Shown piece after piece: positions 39,953 to 51,378 of a DNA stretch of 64,000 bases. The stretch is taken from positions 2,886,001-2,950,000 of the forward strand of contig NC_018868.3 of NCBI RefSeq assembly GCF_000305785.2, given 5' to 3'. Under the pieces are notes generated by a model. It saw nothing but the letters and a program-made list of their open reading frames with translations. It was not told the DNA's origin and did no database searches. The translations under genes and the position numbers were made by a program. How positions within the stretch are numbered: the stretch's first letter is position 1; each line of letters opens with the position of its first letter. This stretch comes from Simiduia agarivorans SA1 = DSM 21679 (GTDB taxonomy: Bacteria > Pseudomonadota > Gammaproteobacteria > Pseudomonadales > Cellvibrionaceae).

Positions 39953-40033
39953 TTATAACAAAGGCAGGCAAAGTAGGCCGCGAAAAGCGCGGCCCGGACT
40001 CGCTGTCGCTCGCCTTTGCTGCCGGCGTTAGAT
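39953..40033 (+). other. attC site 3 (IS element inserted at its edge)
   Basis: R'' TTATAAC to R' GTTAGAT, 81 bp. The 3-bp target duplication (ATT) of the IS3 element is at 40032-40034, overlapping the last bases of R'. Confidence 0.88.
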
Positions 40034-40099
40034 TTCCAAGTTACCCACGAATAGTAGACACCCTGTATAGTTATATTAAGCCTATATGGAGGTGTCCTT

Positions 40100-40408
40100 A
40101 TGGCACGCAAAAAGCATCAGCATTACACCGAAGAATTCCGTAAAGAAGCGATAAAGCGCTCTGAACAGCCGGGTGCTACCCAAGCTTCCGTTGCGAAGGA
40201 GCTTGGGATTAGTGCCCAGCAGATCGCCAACTGGAAGCGTCAACTCACCCGCCTATCTGATAAGCAATTCAATACCTTGGATGGTGTGGATTACTCGAAG
40301 AAAGAAAGTGAGGAGATGCGTGAACTACGGCGAGAGAATAAGCGCCTGAAAGAGGAGATGGAATTCTTAAAAAAGGTGTCTGCGTACTTCGCGAAAAACC
40401 AAGAGTGA
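40100..40408 (+). CDS. IS3-family OrfA (element A, copy 1)
   Basis: 102-aa DNA-binding subunit with a helix-turn-helix (TQASVAKELGISAQQIANWKR) and a C-terminal leucine-zipper coiled coil (RELRRENKRLKEEMEFLKK). A slippery A6G run at 40369-40375 allows a -1 frameshift into orfB, whose frame is open from there, giving the OrfAB transposase. Confidence 0.93.
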   Translation: MARKKHQHYTEEFRKEAIKRSEQPGATQASVAKELGISAQQIANWKRQLTRLSDKQFNTLDGVDYSKKESEEMRELRRENKRLKEEMEFLKKVSAYFAKNQE

Positions 40409-41271
40409 AGTACGCATTGATTTTGGAGTATGTTGGCCAATACAGCATATCCCTGATGTGCGATGTACTAGGCGTACATAGATCTGGCTTCTATCGCTGG
40501 TGGGATGCTCCTAAAACCAAACGTGAGGCTCGTAAGGAAGAGTTAGGCGAACTGGTGAAAGACACCTTTGAGGAGTTTGAGGCTGCCTATGGAGCCCCAA
40601 GAATCGCTCAGGAGCTGAACGACCTAGGGCATAGGTGCTCAGTCAATTTTGTAGCCAAAATCATGCAGGAACAGGGTATTTTGGCCAGAAACGGCAAAGC
40701 CTTTAACTATGGCGGCCACGCATTAACGATGCACAATGTTGCGGACAACCTCCTTTGGCGCGACTTTTCGACTGACCGGCCGAATCAAAAATGGGTCACA
40801 GATATCACGTATGTTTGGGTGAAGAATCAGTGGCTATATCTGGCAACTGTAATGGATCTGTATTCCCGTCGGATTATTGGCTGGAGCCTCGATACCGGCA
40901 TGACTGAGCAGCTCATAACGCGGGCAATGCAGATGGCGATTGATGCCAGAGGTGTGGCACCAGGTCTCATCGTCCATTCGGACCGAGGCACACAGTACCG
41001 CTCAAATAGCTACGTTGGCTTCTTGGAAAAGCACAAGATCACGCGCAGCATGAGTAGAAAGGGTAATTGTTGGGACAATGCAGTAATGGAGTCGTTCTAT
41101 GCACGACTAAAGGTTGAGCTTATCTATGCCAAGAACTATCAGTCGATTGGTGAAGCTCGTTCGGGTATATTTGGGTACATTGAAGTCTTTTATAATCGCA
41201 AGAGAAGGCATTCAGCGAACGATGGGCTAAGTCCCGTTGATTTCGAAGAGAACGCAGCAATAGCTGCATAA
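40405..41271 (+). CDS. IS3-family OrfB transposase (element A, copy 1)
   Basis: 288-aa integrase-core transposase. The DDE residues are visible in KWVTDITYVWV (D), LIVHSDRGTQY (D) and DNAVMESFYARLK (E), with the N-terminal HTH_21-like region around AAYGAPRIAQELNDLGH. It can start at GTG 40405, overlapping the orfA stop, or be made as a frameshift fusion. Intact and probably active, given three identical copies. Confidence 0.95.
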   Translation: MKYALILEYVGQYSISLMCDVLGVHRSGFYRWWDAPKTKREARKEELGELVKDTFEEFEAAYGAPRIAQELNDLGHRCSVNFVAKIMQEQGILARNGKAFNYGGHALTMHNVADNLLWRDFSTDRPNQKWVTDITYVWVKNQWLYLATVMDLYSRRIIGWSLDTGMTEQLITRAMQMAIDARGVAPGLIVHSDRGTQYRSNSYVGFLEKHKITRSMSRKGNCWDNAVMESFYARLKVELIYAKNYQSIGEARSGIFGYIEVFYNRKRRHSANDGLSPVDFEENAAIAA

Positions 41272-41308
41272 GTAGAGTGTCTACTTTTTGTGGGGAACAC
41301 CAATTTAT

Positions 41309-41689
41309 ATGGAACTTACATACGCGATAATGTGGGCTATTTCCATGGTTCTTGGGATTTTGATTGTCCCATTGATTCTCGAGATGGTGATTAAACCTAA
41401 GAGTCAAACCAGAAAGTCAGTAATAGCCAGGGTGATTTTTTCTTCAGGGGTAATATTCCTAGTTTCTAACGTGGCAACTTTAATATTGCTGTTGTTAGAG
41501 GCTGTTTTCGAAAAAGTGTGTAATGTCCCTGTAGCAGATGAGATACCATGTAGTGAGTGGATCTATCATTTCGCCAGCTGGGCACAGGAATGGGCCGGTT
41601 ACCCATTTCTTCTGGTCTTTTTTGGTGTTTATTTGGTTTTGATGTTTAGATTCGGAAAGAATGTTGGGTATAACAGCAAAAAAATCTAA
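41309..41689 (+). CDS. cassette 4: membrane protein, unknown function
   Basis: 126-aa protein with three TM helices (MWAISMVLGILIVPLILEMVI, VIFSSGVIFLVSNVATLILLLL and YPFLLVFFGVYLVLMF) and a loop with two cysteines (CNVPVADEIPC). No family recognised. Its start lies 6 bp after the IS end, so the IS has separated it from its original attC-side leader and may now drive it. The stop TAA is in R'' of attC 4. Confidence 0.65.
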   Translation: MELTYAIMWAISMVLGILIVPLILEMVIKPKSQTRKSVIARVIFSSGVIFLVSNVATLILLLLEAVFEKVCNVPVADEIPCSEWIYHFASWAQEWAGYPFLLVFFGVYLVLMFRFGKNVGYNSKKI

Positions 41690-41758
41690 CAAGGGTGGCC
41701 AATTCGCGGCTATCGCCGCGGGACTCGCTTTCGCTCGCCCTTGCCACCGGCGTTATGT
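41684..41758 (+). other. attC site 4
   Basis: R'' ATCTAAC to R' GTTATGT, 75 bp, with arms GGGTGGCC and TTGCCACC and an inner CGCGGC/GCCGCG stem. Virtually the same as attC 5 and attC 15. Confidence 0.93.
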
Positions 41759-41779
41759 GCAAATGGATTACGCATTGCA

Positions 41780-42157
41780 ATGAAAAGGATATTGTTGGTA
41801 CTGCTAGTAGTTTTTTCGCTTTCTGTTAAAGCTGAAGTGCTGTGGAAGCCGGAGGCTATTTCATATCAGTTGAAGCAAGCTCATAAAATTCTTGGGTATG
41901 GGCTTATGCTTGAGCTTAATCAAGCTTTGAATTCAGGAGAGAAAGGCTGGAGGCAGTCAAGAATCGATGTTCCAGAAAGCTGGGTGGGTGCTTTGATAGA
42001 AATGAAGGGTGGCACGATCTATATTACGGTCGGCACAGACATCTACTACCTTAATTCAACCAATAAAGGCGAGCTTAGTTTTGCCATACTAGATGGTGGG
42101 AAAAAAACAGATGCTAACTTGCTGGAAATTTGGGCCAAATATGCAAAAAGCACATAA
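41780..42157 (+). CDS. cassette 5: exported protein, unknown function
   Basis: 125-aa protein with a signal peptide (MKRILLVLLVVFSLSVKA-EV). The mature part is mixed alpha/beta (IDVPESWVGALIEMKGGTIYITVGTDIYYL). No known family. ATG 41780 gives the signal peptide; the longer in-frame extension runs back through attC and is rejected. The stop TAA lies in R''. Confidence 0.68.
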   Translation: MKRILLVLLVVFSLSVKAEVLWKPEAISYQLKQAHKILGYGLMLELNQALNSGEKGWRQSRIDVPESWVGALIEMKGGTIYITVGTDIYYLNSTNKGELSFAILDGGKKTDANLLEIWAKYAKST

Positions 42158-42226
42158 CAAGGGTGGCCAATTCGCGGCTATCGCCGCGGGACTCGCTTTC
42201 GCTCGCCCTTGCCACCGGCGTTAGGT
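42152..42226 (+). other. attC site 5
   Basis: R'' ACATAAC to R' GTTAGGT, 75 bp; the internal sequence matches attC 4. Confidence 0.93.
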
Positions 42227-42232
42227 GTTCGA

Positions 42233-42709
42233 ATGGCTAAAGATACGCCTTCGATGGCAAAGAATAAGATCAAAAGAAGTTTGGGCGCAATTTGCGATCC
42301 CCACCCTTCTAAGAAAGAAGAAGATGCTCTTTGGATGTATTTCAATTTCCAATGTGCCTATTGCGGTATTCTGATTGAAAGAGCATCGAGAACCGGCCAT
42401 CTTGATCATCTTATTCCTGCTTCTGAAGGCGGAACCAATAGCATCTATAACCATGCTCTTTCGTGTGCAAAGTGCAATGGCGATGAGAAGCGGGAGGGAG
42501 AGTGGGATTCCTTTTTAAAAGTAAAGGCATTATCGAACGAGATTTACGAAATAAGGAAGAATAAGATCGAAGCGTGGTTAAAGAAATCTCCCAAAGTCTT
42601 AAACGATCCTGACTTCATTGCAATGCGGGATAGGATCATAAATAAAGCCATCGCTGATTTTGATGTCGCCGTCTCGAAAATGAGGGAGCTAAGAAATAAA
42701 TGCACCTAA
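42233..42709 (+). CDS. cassette 6: HNH endonuclease domain protein
   Basis: 158-aa protein with a zinc-type HNH nuclease core: CAYCGILIERASRTGHLDHLIPASEGGTNS..., then HALSCAKCNGDEK. Two CxxC pairs bind zinc, and the HLDH and the later NHA supply the catalytic His/Asn. The C-terminal half is helical and charged. HNH cassettes could act in defence or in DNA processing; nothing here tells which. ATG 42233 is preferred over an in-frame extension into attC. Stop TAA in R''. Confidence 0.82.
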   Translation: MAKDTPSMAKNKIKRSLGAICDPHPSKKEEDALWMYFNFQCAYCGILIERASRTGHLDHLIPASEGGTNSIYNHALSCAKCNGDEKREGEWDSFLKVKALSNEIYEIRKNKIEAWLKKSPKVLNDPDFIAMRDRIINKAIADFDVAVSKMRELRNKCT

Positions 42710-42797
42710 CAAGGCCAGCCAACAACGGCAGCGCAAAAGACGCGCTGCCTCGACTCGCTGCGCGTTGCTTCGCTCGCGGTTGCTGGCGGCGTTATAC
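42704..42797 (+). other. attC site 6
   Basis: R'' ACCTAAC to R' GTTATAC, 94 bp, arms GGCCAGCCAACAACGGCAGCGC / GCGCTGCC and GCTGGCGGC. Near-copy at 44604. Confidence 0.9.
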
Positions 42798-42826
42798 GAT
42801 AAAGGAAGAATGAGCTCTGGAGCGTC

Positions 42827-43138
42827 ATGAAGTTTATTAAGGGAAAGGAATTTAAGTCGGATCGGCCTTGGGGTTCTGAATTAATTGCATCAATGAACGG
42901 GATTTCAACCAAAATCCATTGGACTGATGAACCATACAAATGGCACGTCAATGATGGGGAGGAAGTGTTTGTAGTCCTTCATGGTTCAGTAGAGATGCGC
43001 TACAAAAGTGAGTCCGAAGAGCTATCCAAAATCATGGAGTCAGGAGACATATTTTTTGCGTCCATAGGCACAGAACATGTGGCTCACCCAATAGGCGAGG
43101 CCAGAATACTGGTAATAGAAACTGAAGGCAGCGTATAA
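42827..43138 (+). CDS. cassette 7: cupin-domain protein
   Basis: 103-aa single-domain cupin. It has motif 1-like WHVNDGEEVFVVLHGSVEMRY with EE and one histidine, and motif 2-like GDIFFASIGTEHVAHPIG with His ligands. Cupins of this size bind a metal and may be isomerases or binding proteins; the substrate is unknown. ATG 42827 is 29 bp after the recombination core. The stop TAA belongs to R'' of attC 7. Confidence 0.82.
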   Translation: MKFIKGKEFKSDRPWGSELIASMNGISTKIHWTDEPYKWHVNDGEEVFVVLHGSVEMRYKSESEELSKIMESGDIFFASIGTEHVAHPIGEARILVIETEGSV

Positions 43139-43218
43139 CAAGTGTATTTTGTACGCCGCTAAAAGCGCGGCGGGACGGCTCCGCTGTCGCTCCGCCGCCC
43201 CAAATACAGGTGTTAACT
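43133..43218 (+). other. attC site 7
   Basis: R'' GTATAAC to R' GTTAACT, 86 bp, with a strong GCCGC/GCGGC inner stem and GTATTTTG / CAAATAC outer arms. Near-copy at 53802. Confidence 0.92.
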
Positions 43219-43229
43219 GTCTCGACTGA

Positions 43230-44138
43230 ATGATGAAGATTACTCAGATAACAAGAAGAGATCTCTTTGATGCGATTATCATCGAGAGAATAGACTGGGC
43301 AGGATCACTTGAAGAGCCTGAGTTTTTGGCTCGCTTGTATAATCTTCAAGAGATCGAATCAACGGATCAGAGGTTTCCAGATGCGGCCGGTGATATTTGG
43401 CAGCATAGAGTTAGAAACTATGACTGGGATGAGTATTGGGTTTTTAATGATTCTCGATTCCAACTTATGAATGGAGATGACGAAATATTGCTTCGTTTTC
43501 TGGCGGAGACCGTTCATCCTATTGTTCGGTCAGATGCAACAGAATCGCAACGTTTGGTTCAGCTATATAATAAGTTTTTACGAAATGATGGATTTGAACT
43601 GGCAGAAAAAACTCGTATTTCCGGAAAGCCAATTTACATAGGAAGAAATGTAGGTACCGTCTCACTGCCTGGAATGTCGTCTGCAAAAGAAGTTCTTAGC
43701 GGCACAGACTTAGTTTATGTTGCTCAACAGATTACTCGTATGGAAGCGGCGGTTAATAACGATCCTAGTTTAGCTATTGGAACAGCAAAAGAATTAATAG
43801 AAAGCTGTTGTAAAACTATTCTCGCAGAAAGAGGAGTTGCAGTAGGAAGCTCTGATGATGTGCCTAAGCTTGTAAAGGCAACAGTAAAGGAGCTAAAGCT
43901 AACGCCAAGTGACATTCCTGACGAAGCTAAAGCGGCTGATTCGATTAGAAAGCTTTTGAGTAATTTGGCTTCGGTAGCAAGCGGCATTGCAGAATTGAGA
44001 AACAAATACGGTACAGGTCATGGTAAAGAAGGTAGTACCAAAGGATTGAGTTCGCGTCATGCGAAGCTAGCTGTTGGAGCAGCGTCAACGCTGGCGGTCT
44101 TTCTAGTTGAAACTCACCGTGTACAGAATGACAGTTAA
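43230..44138 (+). CDS. cassette 8: abortive-infection family protein (Abi C-terminal domain)
   Basis: 302-aa soluble protein. The C-terminal 140 residues fit the Abi_C domain: DPSLAIGTAKELIESCCKTIL, then VKATVKELKLTPSDIPDEAKAADSIRKLLSNLASVASGIAELRNKYGTGHG and late AVFLVETH. Such proteins are often encoded as phage-defence genes that halt growth of infected cells. The N-terminal part (VRNYDWDEYWVFNDSRFQL) carries the unknown sensing or effector portion. It is the largest non-IS gene of the array. ATG 43233 is an alternative start. Confidence 0.78.
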   Translation: MMKITQITRRDLFDAIIIERIDWAGSLEEPEFLARLYNLQEIESTDQRFPDAAGDIWQHRVRNYDWDEYWVFNDSRFQLMNGDDEILLRFLAETVHPIVRSDATESQRLVQLYNKFLRNDGFELAEKTRISGKPIYIGRNVGTVSLPGMSSAKEVLSGTDLVYVAQQITRMEAAVNNDPSLAIGTAKELIESCCKTILAERGVAVGSSDDVPKLVKATVKELKLTPSDIPDEAKAADSIRKLLSNLASVASGIAELRNKYGTGHGKEGSTKGLSSRHAKLAVGAASTLAVFLVETHRVQNDS

Positions 44139-44189
44139 CAAACGCAAGCATCCGACTCGCTACGCTCCCGGCTGTTGCGGGCGTTATGC
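44133..44189 (+). other. attC site 8
   Basis: R'' AGTTAAC to R' GTTATGC, only 57 bp. Its inner sequence is the same as attC 14 (48079). Confidence 0.9.
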
Positions 44190-44201
44190 ATAAGGCTGGA
44201 T

Positions 44202-44609
44202 ATGCTGAATAAGAAAGTACTTATTGTCGTATTTATTCTATTGCCATGTCTTGGGTTGACGATCTTGCCTATCTGCGCCATTGCTAGCGGCTACTTTATG
44301 CCAAGTCAGGAGCATTTGCTCAGAGCGAGAGACCGTTTGCCTGTTGGGAACATACTGCAAATAGGGTTTTCCTCTGGAAGTGTGAAATGCGATGGAGAGA
44401 AGTGCGATTACAGACAAAGCTTTGATCAAAAACAATACATAAGCACCGGAGATCCGGCTAAAGTTGTTAGCATTAAGAAAGGATATGATGGTGTTTGGTC
44501 CATATCGGAGTCCCGCTTAACTTTAGCTTCCGGCCTTTCTCTCTTGGCTCTTTATATGATTGTATTCGCAGGGCTCACGTACTCGGTAAGAAGTCTTAAA
44601 AATGCATAA
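44202..44609 (+). CDS. cassette 9: two-TM protein, unknown function
   Basis: 135-aa protein with TM helices at both ends (VLIVVFILLPCLGLTILPICAIASGYF and LSLLALYMIVFAGLTYSV) and a soluble loop of about 70 residues with two cysteines (VKCDGEKCDYRQ). No family recognised. ATG 44202 is chosen; the longer frame would start in attC. The stop TAA lies in R'' of attC 9. Confidence 0.65.
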   Translation: MLNKKVLIVVFILLPCLGLTILPICAIASGYFMPSQEHLLRARDRLPVGNILQIGFSSGSVKCDGEKCDYRQSFDQKQYISTGDPAKVVSIKKGYDGVWSISESRLTLASGLSLLALYMIVFAGLTYSVRSLKNA

Positions 44610-44700
44610 CAAGGCCAGCCAACAACGGCAGCGCAAAAAAAAGCGCGCTGCCTCGACTCACTCCGCGTTGCTCCGTTCGCGGCTGCTGGCGGCGTTATAC
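44604..44700 (+). other. attC site 9 (IS element inserted at its edge)
   Basis: R'' GCATAAC to R' GTTATAC, 97 bp, a near-copy of attC 6. The IS target duplication ACG covers 44699-44701. Confidence 0.9.
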
Positions 44701-44766
44701 GTCCAAGTTACCCACGAATAGTAGACACCCTGTATAGTTATATTAAGCCTATATGGAGGTGTCCTT

Positions 44767-45075
44767 ATGGCACGCAAAAAGCATCAGCATTACACCGAAG
44801 AATTCCGTAAAGAAGCGATAAAGCGCTCTGAACAGCCGGGTGCTACCCAAGCTTCCGTTGCGAAGGAGCTTGGGATTAGTGCCCAGCAGATCGCCAACTG
44901 GAAGCGTCAACTCACCCGCCTATCTGATAAGCAATTCAATACCTTGGATGGTGTGGATTACTCGAAGAAAGAAAGTGAGGAGATGCGTGAACTACGGCGA
45001 GAGAATAAGCGCCTGAAAGAGGAGATGGAATTCTTAAAAAAGGTGTCTGCGTACTTCGCGAAAAACCAAGAGTGA
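44767..45075 (+). CDS. IS3-family OrfA (element A, copy 2)
   Basis: Protein identical to the OrfA of copy 1: 102 aa with HTH and leucine zipper, and the same slippery A-run before the stop for -1 frameshifting. Confidence 0.93.
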   Translation: MARKKHQHYTEEFRKEAIKRSEQPGATQASVAKELGISAQQIANWKRQLTRLSDKQFNTLDGVDYSKKESEEMRELRRENKRLKEEMEFLKKVSAYFAKNQE

Positions 45076-45938
45076 AGTACGCATTGATTTTGGAGTATGT
45101 TGGCCAATACAGCATATCCCTGATGTGCGATGTACTAGGCGTACATAGATCTGGCTTCTATCGCTGGTGGGATGCTCCTAAAACCAAACGTGAGGCTCGT
45201 AAGGAAGAGTTAGGCGAACTGGTGAAAGACACCTTTGAGGAGTTTGAGGCTGCCTATGGAGCCCCAAGAATCGCTCAGGAGCTGAACGACCTAGGGCATA
45301 GGTGCTCAGTCAATTTTGTAGCCAAAATCATGCAGGAACAGGGTATTTTGGCCAGAAACGGCAAAGCCTTTAACTATGGCGGCCACGCATTAACGATGCA
45401 CAATGTTGCGGACAACCTCCTTTGGCGCGACTTTTCGACTGACCGGCCGAATCAAAAATGGGTCACAGATATCACGTATGTTTGGGTGAAGAATCAGTGG
45501 CTATATCTGGCAACTGTAATGGATCTGTATTCCCGTCGGATTATTGGCTGGAGCCTCGATACCGGCATGACTGAGCAGCTCATAACGCGGGCAATGCAGA
45601 TGGCGATTGATGCCAGAGGTGTGGCACCAGGTCTCATCGTCCATTCGGACCGAGGCACACAGTACCGCTCAAATAGCTACGTTGGCTTCTTGGAAAAGCA
45701 CAAGATCACGCGCAGCATGAGTAGAAAGGGTAATTGTTGGGACAATGCAGTAATGGAGTCGTTCTATGCACGACTAAAGGTTGAGCTTATCTATGCCAAG
45801 AACTATCAGTCGATTGGTGAAGCTCGTTCGGGTATATTTGGGTACATTGAAGTCTTTTATAATCGCAAGAGAAGGCATTCAGCGAACGATGGGCTAAGTC
45901 CCGTTGATTTCGAAGAGAACGCAGCAATAGCTGCATAA
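45072..45938 (+). CDS. IS3-family OrfB transposase (element A, copy 2)
   Basis: Identical in sequence to the 288-aa OrfB of copy 1, with the full DDE triad. It starts at GTG overlapping the orfA stop or is made as a frameshift fusion. Confidence 0.95.
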   Translation: MKYALILEYVGQYSISLMCDVLGVHRSGFYRWWDAPKTKREARKEELGELVKDTFEEFEAAYGAPRIAQELNDLGHRCSVNFVAKIMQEQGILARNGKAFNYGGHALTMHNVADNLLWRDFSTDRPNQKWVTDITYVWVKNQWLYLATVMDLYSRRIIGWSLDTGMTEQLITRAMQMAIDARGVAPGLIVHSDRGTQYRSNSYVGFLEKHKITRSMSRKGNCWDNAVMESFYARLKVELIYAKNYQSIGEARSGIFGYIEVFYNRKRRHSANDGLSPVDFEENAAIAA

Positions 45939-45981
45939 GTAGAGTGTCTACTTTTTGTGGGGAACACCAACGTGAAGTGAA

Positions 45982-46350
45982 ATGAAACATATTTGCCCAA
46001 ATTGTGGTTCCAAATTTAGTGCTCAAGAAGCGCTCTGCGAAGATTGGAGAAATCCAAAAAGAAGTCTTGGGTGCCCCAACTGCAAAGTATGGTTAAAGCA
46101 CGCTGACCATAGAGCAGAGCTAAAAAGGAATTTCTGGTTCTTGTTGGTAATTGCAATCGTGATAACTGTAAATGCTCTTATAAAAGAGTTGGAAACAGAT
46201 TGGCTTAGTTATGGATATGCCATTGTGATTGCTATCTCCATTGTTGCTTTCATATTGATTAATTATAGGCTTAATGGTAACAGCCAATTAGTTAAACCTA
46301 AATGGAAGCAGTCTCCTTTAGAGATTGTCGATGATGATGAAAACGTATAA
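45982..46350 (+). CDS. cassette 10: zinc-ribbon protein with two TM helices
   Basis: 122-aa protein. It starts with a zinc ribbon (HICPNCGSKFSAQEALCEDWRNPKRSLGCPNCKVWL, two CxxC pairs), followed by two TM helices (FWFLLVIAIVITVNALI and AIVIAISIVAFILINY). The function is unknown; membrane-bound zinc ribbons are common in uncharacterised bacterial proteins. The gene starts 12 bp after the IS end. The stop TAA is in R''. Confidence 0.7.
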   Translation: MKHICPNCGSKFSAQEALCEDWRNPKRSLGCPNCKVWLKHADHRAELKRNFWFLLVIAIVITVNALIKELETDWLSYGYAIVIAISIVAFILINYRLNGNSQLVKPKWKQSPLEIVDDDENV

Positions 46351-46416
46351 CAAACGCAAACAAACTGGCCTATCGGCCTCGACTCGCTACGCTCGCGTTT
46401 GTTGCGGGCGTTATGC
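46345..46416 (+). other. attC site 10
   Basis: R'' GTATAAC to R' GTTATGC, 72 bp, arms AACGCAAACAAAC / GTTTGTTGCGGGCGTT. Confidence 0.9.
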
Positions 46417-46433
46417 GTAAACAAGAAGGATCT

Positions 46434-46739
46434 ATGTGGAAAACAATCGGGACACTTTTTCTGTTTATATTATTTTTTGTTTCTGGTTACTTAGTCGCAT
46501 CTTGGAATTTCGTGTACGGAACAACATACGTACTAACTGAATCAATCGTTCTTGAAAGTGGACAGGCCGTAGGTGAACTCCCGGCCGGCACTGAATTGCA
46601 TTATCAGTCCATGGCGCATGGTGAAATAGATTATTACGTGTTTGTACGCATGCCCCTGAAGAAATCTATGGAAATTAGGAAAAAGGTCGAGGTAGATACC
46701 TATAACGGAATAAAGAGGTTAAAAGGTGGCTTTGAGTAA
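46434..46739 (+). CDS. cassette 11: membrane-anchored small protein, unknown function
   Basis: 101-aa protein with one N-terminal TM (IGTLFLFILFFVSGYLVASW) and a periplasmic beta-rich part (AVGELPAGTELHYQSMAHGEIDYYVFVRM). ATG 46434 has AGAAGG upstream; the in-frame ATG 46413 lies inside the R' core. No family recognised. Confidence 0.65.
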   Translation: MWKTIGTLFLFILFFVSGYLVASWNFVYGTTYVLTESIVLESGQAVGELPAGTELHYQSMAHGEIDYYVFVRMPLKKSMEIRKKVEVDTYNGIKRLKGGFE

Positions 46740-46742
46740 TCC

Positions 46743-46832
46743 GCATAACAAGTGGCTATTGGTGGCCGCACAAAATACGTGCGGCGGGACGGCTACGCTG
46801 TCGCTCCGCCGCCCCAAAGCCAGGCGTTACAA
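46743..46832 (+). other. attC site 11
   Basis: R'' GCATAAC to R' GTTACAA, 90 bp, GTGGCTATTGG ... CCAAAGCCAG arms and a GCGGCGGGACGGC core shared with sites 7, 16 and 19. Confidence 0.88.
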
Positions 46833-46849
46833 GTCTTAGGTATTGAGCA

Positions 46850-47266
46850 ATGATCGAAATTGAATTCGAAGAACCAAAATTAGAAGTATGTGAATGTTGT
46901 GGTAATACGACCACTCGATTAACTCGCTTCGTATACCAAGATGGCGATGCTTTCGCTGTTTACTATGTTTTATTCACTGACGGCCATGAGGATAAAGTTG
47001 CATACTCCTTAATAGGTTTGGGTGAGTGGGGTGAAGGTGGTGAGCCAGAAATGCGTACCGCCTTCGCTGTGAAAATCTGGGACAACAATGACAATTGGGC
47101 AGTAACCGTCACAGATAAAGAAGAATCACCTTGGAGTCATGTAGAGTTCCTAGGGAAAATTGTTAACCGCGAAGAGGCGCTACAGCACCCTTGGATCAAG
47201 GACGTTTACCATATTACTGATCATATCGTTGCTGAAGATAAGCCAGTAATAGAGTTCTTCGCATGA
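46850..47266 (+). CDS. cassette 12: soluble protein with N-terminal CxxC, unknown function
   Basis: 138-aa protein, acidic, with CECCGN near residue 14 (possible metal site) and alternating beta strands (AFAVYYVLFTDGHEDKVAYSLIGLG, FAVKIWDNNDNWAVTVTDKEESPW). The WxHVEFLGKIVNREEALQHPWIKDVYHITDHI end is well structured, so it is probably a real enzyme-like or binding fold. I do not recognise the family. It ends just before attC 12 and does not borrow the R'' stop. Confidence 0.68.
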   Translation: MIEIEFEEPKLEVCECCGNTTTRLTRFVYQDGDAFAVYYVLFTDGHEDKVAYSLIGLGEWGEGGEPEMRTAFAVKIWDNNDNWAVTVTDKEESPWSHVEFLGKIVNREEALQHPWIKDVYHITDHIVAEDKPVIEFFA

Positions 47267-47272
47267 CCCAAC

Positions 47273-47372
47273 TTGTAACAAGCGGCTGCACCGGACAAAT
47301 TTCCGCTGTCACCTTTTTTGCGTGGCAAAAAAGCCGCCATCAAAAATTTGCTCGGTGAGCCGGGCGTTATAT
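47273..47372 (+). other. attC site 12
   Basis: R'' TTGTAAC to R' GTTATAT, 100 bp. Contains the long stem CCTTTTTTGCG / TGGCAAAAAAGCC, different from all other sites in the array. Confidence 0.85.
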
Positions 47373-47395
47373 GCTGATCGTAGATGAGATCTTAA

Positions 47396-47689
47396 ATGAT
47401 ATTTGCAGAACTAGATTATCCTGAAAGTTATGAAAATATTCATGATGAGCTGGTTAATTTTATCAGCTTAGAGTTTAGCAATGTACAGTCAGGGCTTCAG
47501 GGTGATTCATGGATATGGATTTTCAGTGAAAGTGAAAAGGTGGTCATCGACACATTCCTATCTATGAAGCATGAAATCAAATCTGACCATCTCAATTCAA
47601 GGTTGGTGATCGAAGTAATTAACCATTTGAAAAAAAGGTTTGTGGTTAATGTGTATGGCACTCCGGAGCCAGAGCCTCATGAAGAATAG
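47396..47689 (+). CDS. cassette 13: small soluble protein, unknown function
   Basis: 97-aa protein with alternating helical and beta segments (NIHDELVNFISLEFSNVQSG, DSWIWIFSESEKVVIDTF, RFVVNVYGTPEPEPHEE). Acidic and without Cys motifs. No known family; size and charge would also suit an immunity protein, but there is no toxin partner beside it. Confidence 0.62.
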   Translation: MIFAELDYPESYENIHDELVNFISLEFSNVQSGLQGDSWIWIFSESEKVVIDTFLSMKHEIKSDHLNSRLVIEVINHLKKRFVVNVYGTPEPEPHEE

Positions 47690-47695
47690 ATGTGC

Positions 47696-47758
47696 ATATA
47701 ACAAGCAAAAGCAAGCCGACGCGCAGAAACGCGCGCGCGGCTGTTTTGGGCGTTAGGC
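47696..47758 (+). other. attC site 13
   Basis: R'' ATATAAC to R' GTTAGGC, 63 bp, arms GCAAGCCGACGCG / CGCGGCTGTTTTGGGC. Confidence 0.88.
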
Positions 47759-47763
47759 AAATC

Positions 47764-48084
47764 ATGAAATTTCAAGGTGCAAATATTCATCTACAAAAGA
47801 TGGCTACTAAGACTTTGTGTCAATTTTGCATTGATCACGGTATGAAGGAATCTCCAAGCGTCATTAGTATAAAGGAGTGTCTTGAATGCTTGGAGCGAGG
47901 AGATCTTGAGTTGGCGTACTATGCGTATAAGACAGTCCCTCTGGGTGGAAACAATTGCTTCAATGACCGTTTTGTCAAGGCGTCGTACCCTCATGAAAGT
48001 GACAGTTACGCGAATGGTGTGTTTCATGCGTTAATATATTATTGGTGGAATACTATGAATGGATCGGTAGTAAAAAATGCCTAA
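47764..48084 (+). CDS. cassette 14: small soluble protein, unknown function
   Basis: 106-aa protein from ATG 47764; an upstream in-frame extension runs through attC 13. Helical with several cysteines (LCQFCIDHGM, KECLECLERGDLELAYYAYKTV) and a conserved-looking end SYANGVFHALIYYWWNTMNG. No recognised family. The stop TAA lies in R'' of attC 14. Confidence 0.62.
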   Translation: MKFQGANIHLQKMATKTLCQFCIDHGMKESPSVISIKECLECLERGDLELAYYAYKTVPLGGNNCFNDRFVKASYPHESDSYANGVFHALIYYWWNTMNGSVVKNA

Positions 48085-48135
48085 CAAACGCAAGCATCCG
48101 ACTCGCTACGCTCCCGGCTGTTGCGGGCGTTAAAA
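48079..48135 (+). other. attC site 14
   Basis: R'' GCCTAAC to R' GTTAAAA, 57 bp. Its interior is the same as attC 8. Confidence 0.9.
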
Positions 48136-48148
48136 CTCAGGAGTATCG

Positions 48149-48733
48149 ATGGAACCGATTACCTTAACTGCATCATTTGCAACAGTTGTTAGCTTGCTAG
48201 GCACTTATAAAGCTGAAAGTCGTGTGATTGAGGGAGATGAGTTTAAAGATTTCATGCAATGGCTGATTGAAACAAATCATATTGAAATTAAAAATTTATT
48301 AGAAGTTAACACTAAAGCAACTATCGGGATAAAGGCCTTGTTAAACCAAGATAGAGAGCTGTTGTTTCAAAAGCTTGGGGCCATTGATGAATTGCTCAGT
48401 CTTATTGCTAGTCGAGTAGATGGATTTAGCGAAGTAAGTAATGCGATTCACCCTAATAGCGAAATTTCAGAGCAAGCTGTTTCTATCCTTAGGCAGTTTG
48501 TTGAGTCTGAGGGAAGTAAGTTTCTAAAGTCTGAAGCTATGAATCGCGGTCCGGTTTTTCTAATAATAGGGGGAAAAGGTGGTCAAATTGACTACACCGA
48601 ACCCCAGTTCATCGATGACGATTTGAACACGCTAGTTGGTATCGGGTTGCTTGCACAAGATTACAATAGCAAAGGACAGCCCTTATATGGGATTACAAGA
48701 GCTGCGGTTAAGTTCCTTGCCACACTGCAATAA
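48149..48733 (+). CDS. cassette 15: coiled-coil protein with C-terminal winged-helix-like part
   Basis: 194-aa protein. The N-terminus is moderately hydrophobic (TLTASFATVVSLLGTYKAE), then comes a long helical region (FKDFMQWLIETNHIEIKNLLEVN ... LLFQKLGAIDELLSLIASRV), and the end (DLNTLVGIGLLAQDYNSKGQPLYGITRAAVKFL) looks like a winged-helix DNA-binding or effector-module fold. No family can be named. The second IS3 type lies in its attC just downstream. Confidence 0.65.
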   Translation: MEPITLTASFATVVSLLGTYKAESRVIEGDEFKDFMQWLIETNHIEIKNLLEVNTKATIGIKALLNQDRELLFQKLGAIDELLSLIASRVDGFSEVSNAIHPNSEISEQAVSILRQFVESEGSKFLKSEAMNRGPVFLIIGGKGGQIDYTEPQFIDDDLNTLVGIGLLAQDYNSKGQPLYGITRAAVKFLATLQ

Positions 48734-48835
48734 ATGTTTTAACAAGGGTGGCCAATTCGCGGCTGTCGCCGCGGGACTCTAGACTTGCACCACTTTGACG
48801 GACAGTAAATTACTGTCAGTCAAAAGAGGTGTGTT

Positions 48836-49201
48836 ATGGGAATAACAAAGAAGAAACACTACGACAGCTACACATTGGCCTTTAAGGTCAAAGCGGTCAG
48901 AGAAAGTAAAAAACGAGGCGTTAAGGCCATAGATGTGGCGAACGCGCTTGGTATTCATCCGGTTATGTTGTATAGATGGCGACAGGAGTATAAGGAAGGT
49001 CGCCTATCGGAGAACAAGCATATGAAGGTGCCGGAGCCCCCACCTAAAAAATCTCGCGAAGACAGCGACAAGCTTAAAGTGGCCGAGAGGCGCATTAAGG
49101 AGCTTGAGAAACGCTTGGCGGCTAAGGAAGAAGAGGTCGTCATTTTAAAAAAGGCAAAGCGGTTCTTCTTGGAACAGCGCAAGAAAGATATGCGTTCATA
49201 G
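48836..49201 (+). CDS. IS3-family OrfA (element B)
   Basis: 121-aa DNA-binding protein with a helix-turn-helix (VKAIDVANALGIHPVMLYRWR) and a coiled-coil zipper (AERRIKELEKRLAAKEEEVVILKK). An A6G slippery run at 49147-49153 allows -1 frameshifting into orfB, which is open from there onward. Confidence 0.92.
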   Translation: MGITKKKHYDSYTLAFKVKAVRESKKRGVKAIDVANALGIHPVMLYRWRQEYKEGRLSENKHMKVPEPPPKKSREDSDKLKVAERRIKELEKRLAAKEEEVVILKKAKRFFLEQRKKDMRS

Positions 49202-50025
49202 AGGAGAACCGCGACGTTCATAAAGTCGTGACGATGTGTGAACACCTTGATGTTTCGACCAGTGGTTACTATGACTGGCGCGAGAGGAAGCCGAGTGAGC
49301 GAGCCCAGTACGACGCTATCCTGGTGAGCCAGATATGTCGCATGCATGTTGGCCACCAAAAAAACTATGGCGCGATACGGGTGCACCCTTACTTAAGGGC
49401 GCGCGATTACGCCTGTAGTCGGCGCCGGATCAATCGCTTGATGAAGGCACATGGCATACGCTCTATTTATCATGCTCAGCGTCCGCGTCGTTACAAAGGA
49501 GCAAATGCTCCAGTATCGGATAACATATTGGCTGCTCGACCAAAAGCTGCGCAAGTAGGCGAAAGCTGGGCTGGAGACATGACCTATCTGAAGACGGCGG
49601 AAGGGGAGCTGTATATGGCTGCGGTCTTGGATCTCTACAATCGCAAGGTCGTTGGCTGGGGCTTTTCCTCAGCCCATAATAGTGATCTGGTTGAGGGCGC
49701 ACTACAGATGGCGCTGGCGATGGAGGAGCGGCTTCCAGGTTGCATCTTCCACAGCGACCAAGGCTCAGAATATCGATCGGATGAGTATCGCAGGCTGCTT
49801 CAAGATTCAGATATGGTGAGCAGCATGAGCAGGGCTGGAGTGCCTACAGACAATGCGTACGTAGAATCGTTCTTTAAAACGTTGAAAAATGAGCTGGTTC
49901 ATCATTGGAAATTCAAAAGCAAGATAGAATGCGTTGCCCGAGTTGTTGATTACGTTGGGTTTTATAATAATAACCGCTTACACTCGGGTTTAGATTATGC
50001 AACACCAAATTCATATCAAGGGTGA
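49147..50025 (+). CDS. IS3-family OrfB transposase (element B, frameshift region to stop)
   Basis: DDE transposase with SWAGDMTYLK (D), CIFHSDQGSEYRS (D) and DNAYVESFFKTLKNE (E). The reading frame is open from the slippery site at 49147; the first ATG is at 49228 and a GTG stands at 49222. The product is probably made as an OrfAB fusion. Coding sequence intact. Confidence 0.92.
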   Translation, partial: KKGKAVLLGTAQERYAFIEENRDVHKVVTMCEHLDVSTSGYYDWRERKPSERAQYDAILVSQICRMHVGHQKNYGAIRVHPYLRARDYACSRRRINRLMKAHGIRSIYHAQRPRRYKGANAPVSDNILAARPKAAQVGESWAGDMTYLKTAEGELYMAAVLDLYNRKVVGWGFSSAHNSDLVEGALQMALAMEERLPGCIFHSDQGSEYRSDEYRRLLQDSDMVSSMSRAGVPTDNAYVESFFKTLKNELVHHWKFKSKIECVARVVDYVGFYNNNRLHSGLDYATPNSYQG

Positions 50026-50160
50026 ATCAATAGGTGTCCGTGAAAGTGGTGCAAGTCCACTCGCTTTCGCTCGCCCTTGCCACCGGCGTTAAATTCCCAA
50101 GTTACCCACGAATAGTAGACACCCTGTATAGTTATATTAAGCCTATATGGAGGTGTCCTT

Positions 50161-50469
50161 ATGGCACGCAAAAAGCATCAGCATTACACCGAAGAATTCC
50201 GTAAAGAAGCGATAAAGCGCTCTGAACAGCCGGGTGCTACCCAAGCTTCCGTTGCGAAGGAGCTTGGGATTAGTGCCCAGCAGATCGCCAACTGGAAGCG
50301 TCAACTCACCCGCCTATCTGATAAGCAATTCAATACCTTGGATGGTGTGGATTACTCGAAGAAAGAAAGTGAGGAGATGCGTGAACTACGGCGAGAGAAT
50401 AAGCGCCTGAAAGAGGAGATGGAATTCTTAAAAAAGGTGTCTGCGTACTTCGCGAAAAACCAAGAGTGA
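50161..50469 (+). CDS. IS3-family OrfA (element A, copy 3)
   Basis: Protein identical to the OrfA of copies 1 and 2, 102 aa, with HTH, zipper and slippery A-run. Confidence 0.93.
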   Translation: MARKKHQHYTEEFRKEAIKRSEQPGATQASVAKELGISAQQIANWKRQLTRLSDKQFNTLDGVDYSKKESEEMRELRRENKRLKEEMEFLKKVSAYFAKNQE

Positions 50470-51332
50470 AGTACGCATTGATTTTGGAGTATGTTGGCCA
50501 ATACAGCATATCCCTGATGTGCGATGTACTAGGCGTACATAGATCTGGCTTCTATCGCTGGTGGGATGCTCCTAAAACCAAACGTGAGGCTCGTAAGGAA
50601 GAGTTAGGCGAACTGGTGAAAGACACCTTTGAGGAGTTTGAGGCTGCCTATGGAGCCCCAAGAATCGCTCAGGAGCTGAACGACCTAGGGCATAGGTGCT
50701 CAGTCAATTTTGTAGCCAAAATCATGCAGGAACAGGGTATTTTGGCCAGAAACGGCAAAGCCTTTAACTATGGCGGCCACGCATTAACGATGCACAATGT
50801 TGCGGACAACCTCCTTTGGCGCGACTTTTCGACTGACCGGCCGAATCAAAAATGGGTCACAGATATCACGTATGTTTGGGTGAAGAATCAGTGGCTATAT
50901 CTGGCAACTGTAATGGATCTGTATTCCCGTCGGATTATTGGCTGGAGCCTCGATACCGGCATGACTGAGCAGCTCATAACGCGGGCAATGCAGATGGCGA
51001 TTGATGCCAGAGGTGTGGCACCAGGTCTCATCGTCCATTCGGACCGAGGCACACAGTACCGCTCAAATAGCTACGTTGGCTTCTTGGAAAAGCACAAGAT
51101 CACGCGCAGCATGAGTAGAAAGGGTAATTGTTGGGACAATGCAGTAATGGAGTCGTTCTATGCACGACTAAAGGTTGAGCTTATCTATGCCAAGAACTAT
51201 CAGTCGATTGGTGAAGCTCGTTCGGGTATATTTGGGTACATTGAAGTCTTTTATAATCGCAAGAGAAGGCATTCAGCGAACGATGGGCTAAGTCCCGTTG
51301 ATTTCGAAGAGAACGCAGCAATAGCTGCATAA
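50466..51332 (+). CDS. IS3-family OrfB transposase (element A, copy 3)
   Basis: Identical in sequence to OrfB of copies 1 and 2, 288 aa with an intact DDE triad; GTG start overlapping orfA or a frameshift fusion. Confidence 0.95.
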   Translation: MKYALILEYVGQYSISLMCDVLGVHRSGFYRWWDAPKTKREARKEELGELVKDTFEEFEAAYGAPRIAQELNDLGHRCSVNFVAKIMQEQGILARNGKAFNYGGHALTMHNVADNLLWRDFSTDRPNQKWVTDITYVWVKNQWLYLATVMDLYSRRIIGWSLDTGMTEQLITRAMQMAIDARGVAPGLIVHSDRGTQYRSNSYVGFLEKHKITRSMSRKGNCWDNAVMESFYARLKVELIYAKNYQSIGEARSGIFGYIEVFYNRKRRHSANDGLSPVDFEENAAIAA

Positions 51333-51378
51333 GTAGAGTGTCTACTTTTTGTGGGGAACACCAGTTTAAAGGAGAGCT

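Follow-up and report, generated by a model that had tools for sequence, protein, structure and literature searches.

Among the papers covered of the open-access PMC literature, the elements named as targeting the attC sites of integrons are only those of the IS1111/IS110 type and group II introns. A preliminary description of the DNA studied here had taken known attC-targeting insertion sequences (ISs) to be mainly of the IS1111/IS110 type. Within the parts covered of the open-access PMC literature on integrons and attC, a scope outside which lie subscription literature and ISfinder, no IS3-family element is reported as attC-targeting. Tetu & Holmes 2008 and Post & Hall 2009 are said to be the works cited for the IS1111-attC group (ISKpn4, ISPst6). 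For IS3-family elements that insert at repetitive extragenic palindromic (REP) sequences, the transposase is described as the likely determinant of specificity (PMC1525189), and in one plant-microbiome survey 23% of cassette-associated transposases were of the IS3 family (PMC11089894). Here, we describe an IS3-family element that occurs three times in a stretch of 64,000 nucleotides from Simiduia agarivorans SA1 = DSM 21679 (contig NC_018868.3, positions 2,886,001 to 2,950,000; hereafter the window). We confirm that the fixed position of this IS beside attC is real and generalises to its relatives, which probably constitute a clade of IS3-family insertion sequences that target the core of integron attC sites.

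Results

The insertion sequence starts at one fixed position beside attC

Each of the three copies in the window starts 9 bases past the G of an attC R' core and lies in the cassette orientation, at the junctions GTTAG/ATTT (copy 1), GTTAT/ACGT (copy 2) and GTTAA/ATTC (copy 3), and the attC sites next to them differ in sequence. The preliminary description had reported both the shared spot and the unlike neighbouring sites, and both statements hold. Its copy length of 1268 bp becomes 1267 bp, the extra base being target sequence (T, T and C in copies 1 to 3), and the duplications that it had read as 3 bp for copies 1 and 2 are real but span 4 bp (ATTT/ATTT and ACGT/ACGT).

A search of the whole genome, one contig of 4.30 Mb, with the IS as query gave eight matches: five at 100% identity, two at 98% (1288 and 1289 bp) and a left-end remnant (117 positions). 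All eight start 9 bases past an attC core G and all have one orientation. There are 777 occurrences of GGCGTTA in this genome; a strict attC pattern, TAACAAN{38,68}GGCGTTA, has 61 matches (reversed control, 8). By eye, at least four of the 61 belong to copies of a second element and do not represent attC, and the pattern overlooks attCs of other lengths. If all GGCGTTA sites were equal targets, the probability of finding eight of eight at attC would be 1.4e-9 with 61 attCs and 1.9e-6 with an assumed number of 150; the placement at attC exceeds chance. The left flanks, the right flanks and the target duplications vary among these copies. Because flanks and duplications differ, the copies are not one event duplicated, and the objection that the three in the window might derive from a single event through homologous recombination does not apply.

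Position and orientation are shared by relatives

Relatives were collected by a scan of genome contigs (80 of 379 confirmed stretches kept), by genome searches that gave matches in 8 of 58 genomes of relatives, 15 of 390 of the order and 4 of 369 of the class (the S. agarivorans genome being counted in each), by a search of 196 Vibrio genomes (19 with a match), and from the genomes behind 35 loci and a plasmid collection. A left-end matrix, blind to the flank and seeded with ends of loci already seen beside attC, reduced the 227 loci to 101 distinct insertions. Loci with no readable left end or with fewer than 50 bases of left flank were dropped before the count; they include L012/L155, L020/L161, L036/L147, L059, L100, L114, L116/L123, L117, L120, L121 and L134, as well as the Gilvimarinus copies L017, L044 and L052. 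Those with identical 50-bp left flanks were dropped too. Since only exact flank duplicates were removed, an old insertion common to two diverged genomes could count twice. The figures below refer to the 100 insertions with an OrfB identity of at least 48%, the one excluded row being L181 (43% identity, no core).

In 86 of the 100 distinct insertions the core G is found at -9, and in four at -10, a total of 90. Core adjacency was found in 16/16 copies at an OrfB identity of at least 75%, in 43/49 at 60-75%, in 18/21 at 55-60% and in 13/14 at 48-55%. Among the 86 copies with the core at -9, C precedes the G in every one and A occupies position 4 in 85. The core is at the left end in 90 of the 100 and at the right end in two, so that most relatives lie neither elsewhere nor in mixed orientations, the check that had been proposed for the initial observation. 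In an outgroup control, CGTTA was present in 3 of 29 loci within the 260 bp expected to hold the left end. A perfect 4-bp duplication flanks 34 of the 82 core-at-minus-9 copies that are readable on both sides, against 2.2 expected on re-pairing. When an R''/L'' partner was sought against dinucleotide shuffles that left core and arm unchanged, an attC hairpin partner was detected at p<=0.05 in 67 of the 90 core-adjacent copies, against 4.5 expected. This shuffle test replaced earlier attC scores, whose GTTRR rule missed GTTAT and whose background held real attCs, and a score with 163 background sites that separated poorly (about 17 of 101 rows above the 99% line).

Members of the clade come from Vibrio, Pseudoalteromonas, Marinobacterium, Cellvibrionaceae and others. 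Eight plasmid loci were fetched, and in all seven with a readable left end (that is, all except L134) the core is at -9. The viral contigs included one in-clade contig (L202/L209), equal in length to the contig of L078, and a short 64% piece (L210). On a 74-kb plasmid of Vibrio campbellii (NZ_CP050482.1; L128), a copy whose transposase is annotated in pieces sits at an attC, and the gene upstream of that attC carries the annotation aminoglycoside phosphotransferase family protein.

In an OrfB tree of 105 rows (65 with the core at -9/-10, nine without it and 31 outgroup rows from more distant relatives), where the label 'attC' denotes core presence only, every one of the 65 core-adjacent rows belongs to a single 72-row clade (support 100/100 on a bootstrap not fully settled, stem 0.59), joined by seven coreless rows; L054, L181 and the 31 outgroup rows lie outside it. 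The core label needs six changes on this tree because the coreless rows are scattered within the clade. What had been proposed for one element, an IS3/DDE transposase aimed at the attC edge, is thereby supported for a whole clade (90/100 insertions; 65/65 tree rows). One basal branch (L051, L053, L043, L136, L041 and L045) has CGTTA cores, with attC detected only in L053 and L043, and these six rows suggest that core reading may have preceded the preference for attC.

Core sequence and fold

The preliminary description had left the common feature of the sites as either the core or the folded attC. We compared 34 hit with 150 unhit attCs of Vibrio; the attC scan required G.CGTTA, so core positions 1-4 were fixed by construction. 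Position 5 is T in 31/34 hit and 77/150 unhit sites (p=1.1e-5), i.e. GTTAT is favoured, and position 6 is a purine in 34/34 hit and 102/150 unhit sites (p=1.6e-5, the grouping having been chosen after the counts were seen). Positions 7-9 showed no difference between the same two sets. Perfect duplications also occur at cores without a visible attC (L122, L136 and L051, plus L222, which is inverted). The use of non-attC cores, together with the core-base preferences in Vibrio, favours the sequence over the fold alone. Of the two features first offered, the core sequence (CGTTA and a purine at position 6) is thus the one preferred, and the fold by itself is not; the favoured reading is that the transposase would read the core sequence with help from the attC context.

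We consider it unlikely that the transposase or transposition complex recognises instead a folded attC, as a cruciform or a single-stranded bottom strand, with the core bases as no more than the foot of the hairpin. A recognised fold could explain why hit sites have arms of unlike sequence, why the cut spans the point where the R'/R'' stem ends, why in the S. agarivorans genome attC is chosen so strongly over the remaining GGCGTTA sites, and why L167 and L118 are, by eye, next to an attC-like hairpin on its R'' side. Hit and unhit attCs of Vibrio, however, fold alike yet differ at positions 5 and 6, the cores without a visible attC were used with perfect duplications, and the site hit by L141 is by eye the right half of an attC only. 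L118 (G176) itself lies next to a long hairpin at GTTGG/GCGT and by eye seems to use the outer (R'') end of an oppositely directed attC.

Exceptions

Several observations weigh against targeting of the attC core. Outside Vibrio (13 hit, 64 unhit attCs) there is no position-5 preference (p=0.55), and position 6 shows a trend only, with a purine in 12/13 hit and 42/64 unhit sites (p=0.09). The core alone fails to explain the attC bias in the S. agarivorans genome, given the 777 GGCGTTA sites and 61 strict attCs there; since the core alone gives no such bias, context or selection must add to it, a second factor that we assume. Perfect duplications are lacking in 48 of the 82 readable copies, which we assume to reflect recombination between copies and decay.

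Ten of the 100 insertions have no left-side core (L054, L124, L164, L165, L166, L167, L168, L176, L222 and L227), and six of these ten have a perfect duplication. Perfect duplications flank L124 (GGCGTAAT), L166 and L168, whose sites look unlike attC, and L164, L165 and L227 have neither core nor duplication. In L222 and L167 it is the right end that has a core at the usual distance, which makes the IS inverted there; L222, from Vibrio, lies on a contig different from that of its five sister copies at a site that is by eye not attC, and L167 lies at the R'' side of an attC. Furthermore, 23 of the 90 core-adjacent copies have no significant hairpin partner. Two of them are S. agarivorans copies, their attC being interrupted by the second element, and some are cut by contig ends. 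By eye, nine of the 23 are attC-like (L097, L098, L104, L107, L139, L162, the second copy of L169, L170 and L172), L141 has the half site noted above, L051, L122 and L136 look non-attC, and ten are ambiguous (L041, L045, L096, L115, L118, L180, L184, L189, L195 and L225).

L164-L166, from the genomes of the Colwellia-type loci L027-L029, are coreless on both sides, and L170 (Shewanella locus L031) on the neighbouring branch has the core; the coreless sites may reflect either a loss of specificity or recombined flanks. L176, a 57% relative in the genome of the Haliea salexigens locus L014, has inserted into a 66% relative, a single base in from its right tip, and is flanked by a perfect ATGG duplication; this recalls the inverted-repeat targeting of IS30.

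The insertion sequence as part of a cassette

Insertion straddles and repeats its target bases between attC and the next gene; it consequently leaves the attC intact and turns the IS into the 5' portion of the next cassette. The IS thus does stand in front of downstream cassette genes, as the preliminary description had it; an outward promoter is unsupported, promoter-like sites around copy 1 numbering 1 against 2.2 expected in shuffles. In one Vibrio genome (G1001; L228 and L229), a 1914-bp block occurs twice in identical form, the two places being separated by 37 kb. The block contains the core, a shortened IS copy of 1187 bp, cassette DNA and an attC, starts at GGCGTTAT behind two different attCs and stops at the next core, and its neighbours differ on both sides. 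This one case of a unit bounded by core sites and placed behind different attCs is a footprint of cassette movement, in which the integrase would have acted; in this genome the IS thus also rides with cassettes.

That the integron integrase itself places the element, either by recruiting the transposase or because the IS is simply a cassette, is improbable. The IS-bearing cassette behind two different attCs and the fact that the insertion point adjoins the integrase's own core would fit such a role. Plain cassette movement, however, yields no target duplication, the 4-bp duplications and the downstream genes vary among copies, and copies are found at cores outside attC.

Anatomy of the element

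IS3-family elements generate short target duplications of 3-5 bp. The element described here combines a 4-bp duplication with an OrfB that has an rve domain and DD(35)E motif, a helix-turn-helix (HTH) OrfA that overlaps OrfB near a candidate slippery site, and inverted repeats, which places it in the IS3 family. OrfB matches PF00665 (E=3.6e-30) and NF033516 transpos_IS3 (E=8e-101, 338 bits against a cut-off of 160), and 35 residues separate D193, the second D, from E229. OrfA matches PF01527 (E=5e-14). The two frames overlap by 4 bp, and the A6G heptamer that precedes the overlap is the candidate slippery site. The inverted repeats, 27 bp long, are imperfect: the outermost four bases are unlike, and agreement begins at the fifth. 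A family profile search gave no IS110-type match for the element's proteins, the matches being to IS3, rve and HTH families. Coordinates are collected in Table 1.

Table 1. Positions in the window of the three IS copies, their target sites and associated features
Feature	Position	Strand	Remarks
IS copy 1	40036..41302	+	1267 bp
IS copy 2	44703..45969	+	1267 bp, identical to copy 1
IS copy 3	50097..51363	+	1267 bp, identical to copies 1 and 2
Target duplication ATTT of copy 1	left 40032..40035, right 41303-41306	+	
Target duplication ACGT of copy 2	left 44699..44702, right 45970-45973	+	
ATTC left and GTTT right of copy 3	left 50093..50096, right 51364-51367	+	no duplication
attC preceding copy 1	39953..40033	+	core G 40027
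attC preceding copy 2	44604..44700	+	core G 44694
attC preceding copy 3, 5' part	48737..48779	+	split by second IS3-family element
attC preceding copy 3, 3' part	50060..50094	+	core G 50088
OrfA	40100..40408	+	102 aa, HTH_Tnp_1; same in copies 2 and 3
OrfB	40405..41271	+	288 aa, rve core, DD(35)E
A6G heptamer, candidate -1 frameshift site	40369..40375	+	sequence only
Left inverted repeat of copy 1	40036..40062	+	CCAAGTTACCCAC..GTAGACACC
Right inverted repeat of copy 1	41276..41302	-	TGGTGTTCCCCAC..GTAGACACT on minus strand
Second IS3-family element	48780..50059	+	1280 bp, inside attC preceding copy 3

A second IS3-family element inside attC

The second element (loci: window 48780-50059; L089-L092; L232) has four matches in the S. 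agarivorans genome, all inside attC sites at, or at most 1 base from, GACTC/GCT; by eye, the three matches with both ends have 3-bp duplications (CTC, ACT and CTC). A 64% relative in G023 also appears, by eye, to lie inside an attC. The second element is possibly a separate attC-targeting lineage, to judge from these placements. It had no match in viral contigs and none in plasmids at E<=1e-90. At L104 (window 48780-51363) and L107, an attC split by this element is joined by a 1267-bp IS at the core, and both of these IS copies are without a perfect target duplication.

Discussion

The IS would move by copy-out paste-in, as in the IS3 family. Its transposase, probably through the HTH part contributed by OrfA, would read CGTTA and the purine at position 6, and the ends would be joined at positions 5/6 and 9/10, a stagger of 4 bp. 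The attC context, whether the rest of the site, its fold or a tolerance of insertions there, would add to the preference, and the IS would then move along with the downstream cassette in an integrase-dependent step. We put forward tentatively, as a possibility somewhat short of even, the wider proposal that an IS3 transposase has evolved to read the integrase's core, perhaps in the folded attC, giving a two-tier mobility: transposition to the 5' edge of a cassette leaves the attC unharmed, and the integrase then spreads the IS within cassettes through arrays and between bacteria.

Two further explanations touch the distribution as a whole. Near-random insertion, with selection retaining copies in cassette arrays where harm is small, could contribute to the surplus of copies at attC relative to other GGCGTTA sites, but it is very improbable as the cause, for it cannot yield a base-exact phase and a single orientation in 90 of 100 distinct insertions. 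Least credible of all is a single event that homologous recombination or faulty assembly has multiplied: five S. agarivorans copies are identical and copy 3 has no duplication, so that recombination between copies probably did occur, yet left and right flanks differ for every copy in that genome, the pattern recurs in other genera, and copies 1 and 2 are each set apart by a perfect duplication of their own.

If core targeting is true, this DDE element would represent an independent solution to attC recognition, one that could be dissected as a protein-DNA problem. The IS lands outside the functional site, so it can itself enter the cassette pool; as part of a cassette with its site unbroken, an IS of this clade may travel with that cassette, and such entry could account for part of the IS3 transposases in cassette arrays (PMC11089894).

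The closest described systems each share a part of this behaviour. The IS1111-attC group likewise inserts at attC; its members are of the IS110/IS1111 type, with a DEDD transposase and a seekRNA (PMC11187229), whereas the present element has a DDE transposase of the IS3 family, makes 4-bp duplications and inserts just outside the functional site. Group IIC-attC introns are also mobile elements inserted at attC, but they are retroelement ribozymes, for which the attC bottom strand serves as the stem-loop (PMC7923331, PMC8876359). IS30, which chooses hot-spot sequences or IS inverted repeats (PMC9333248), resembles L176 in its target and belongs to another family with another hot spot. An IS3-family element of 1261 bp in the chromosomal cassette array of Vibrio cholerae, likened here by its description, is present in two opposed copies without target duplications, one of them in a cassette coding sequence (PMC11023631). 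IS1397, ISKpn1 and ISPsy8, again compared by description, are site-selective IS3-family elements with a repeated-palindrome target (PMC1525189); theirs is the REP sequence, and that of the present element is the attC core.

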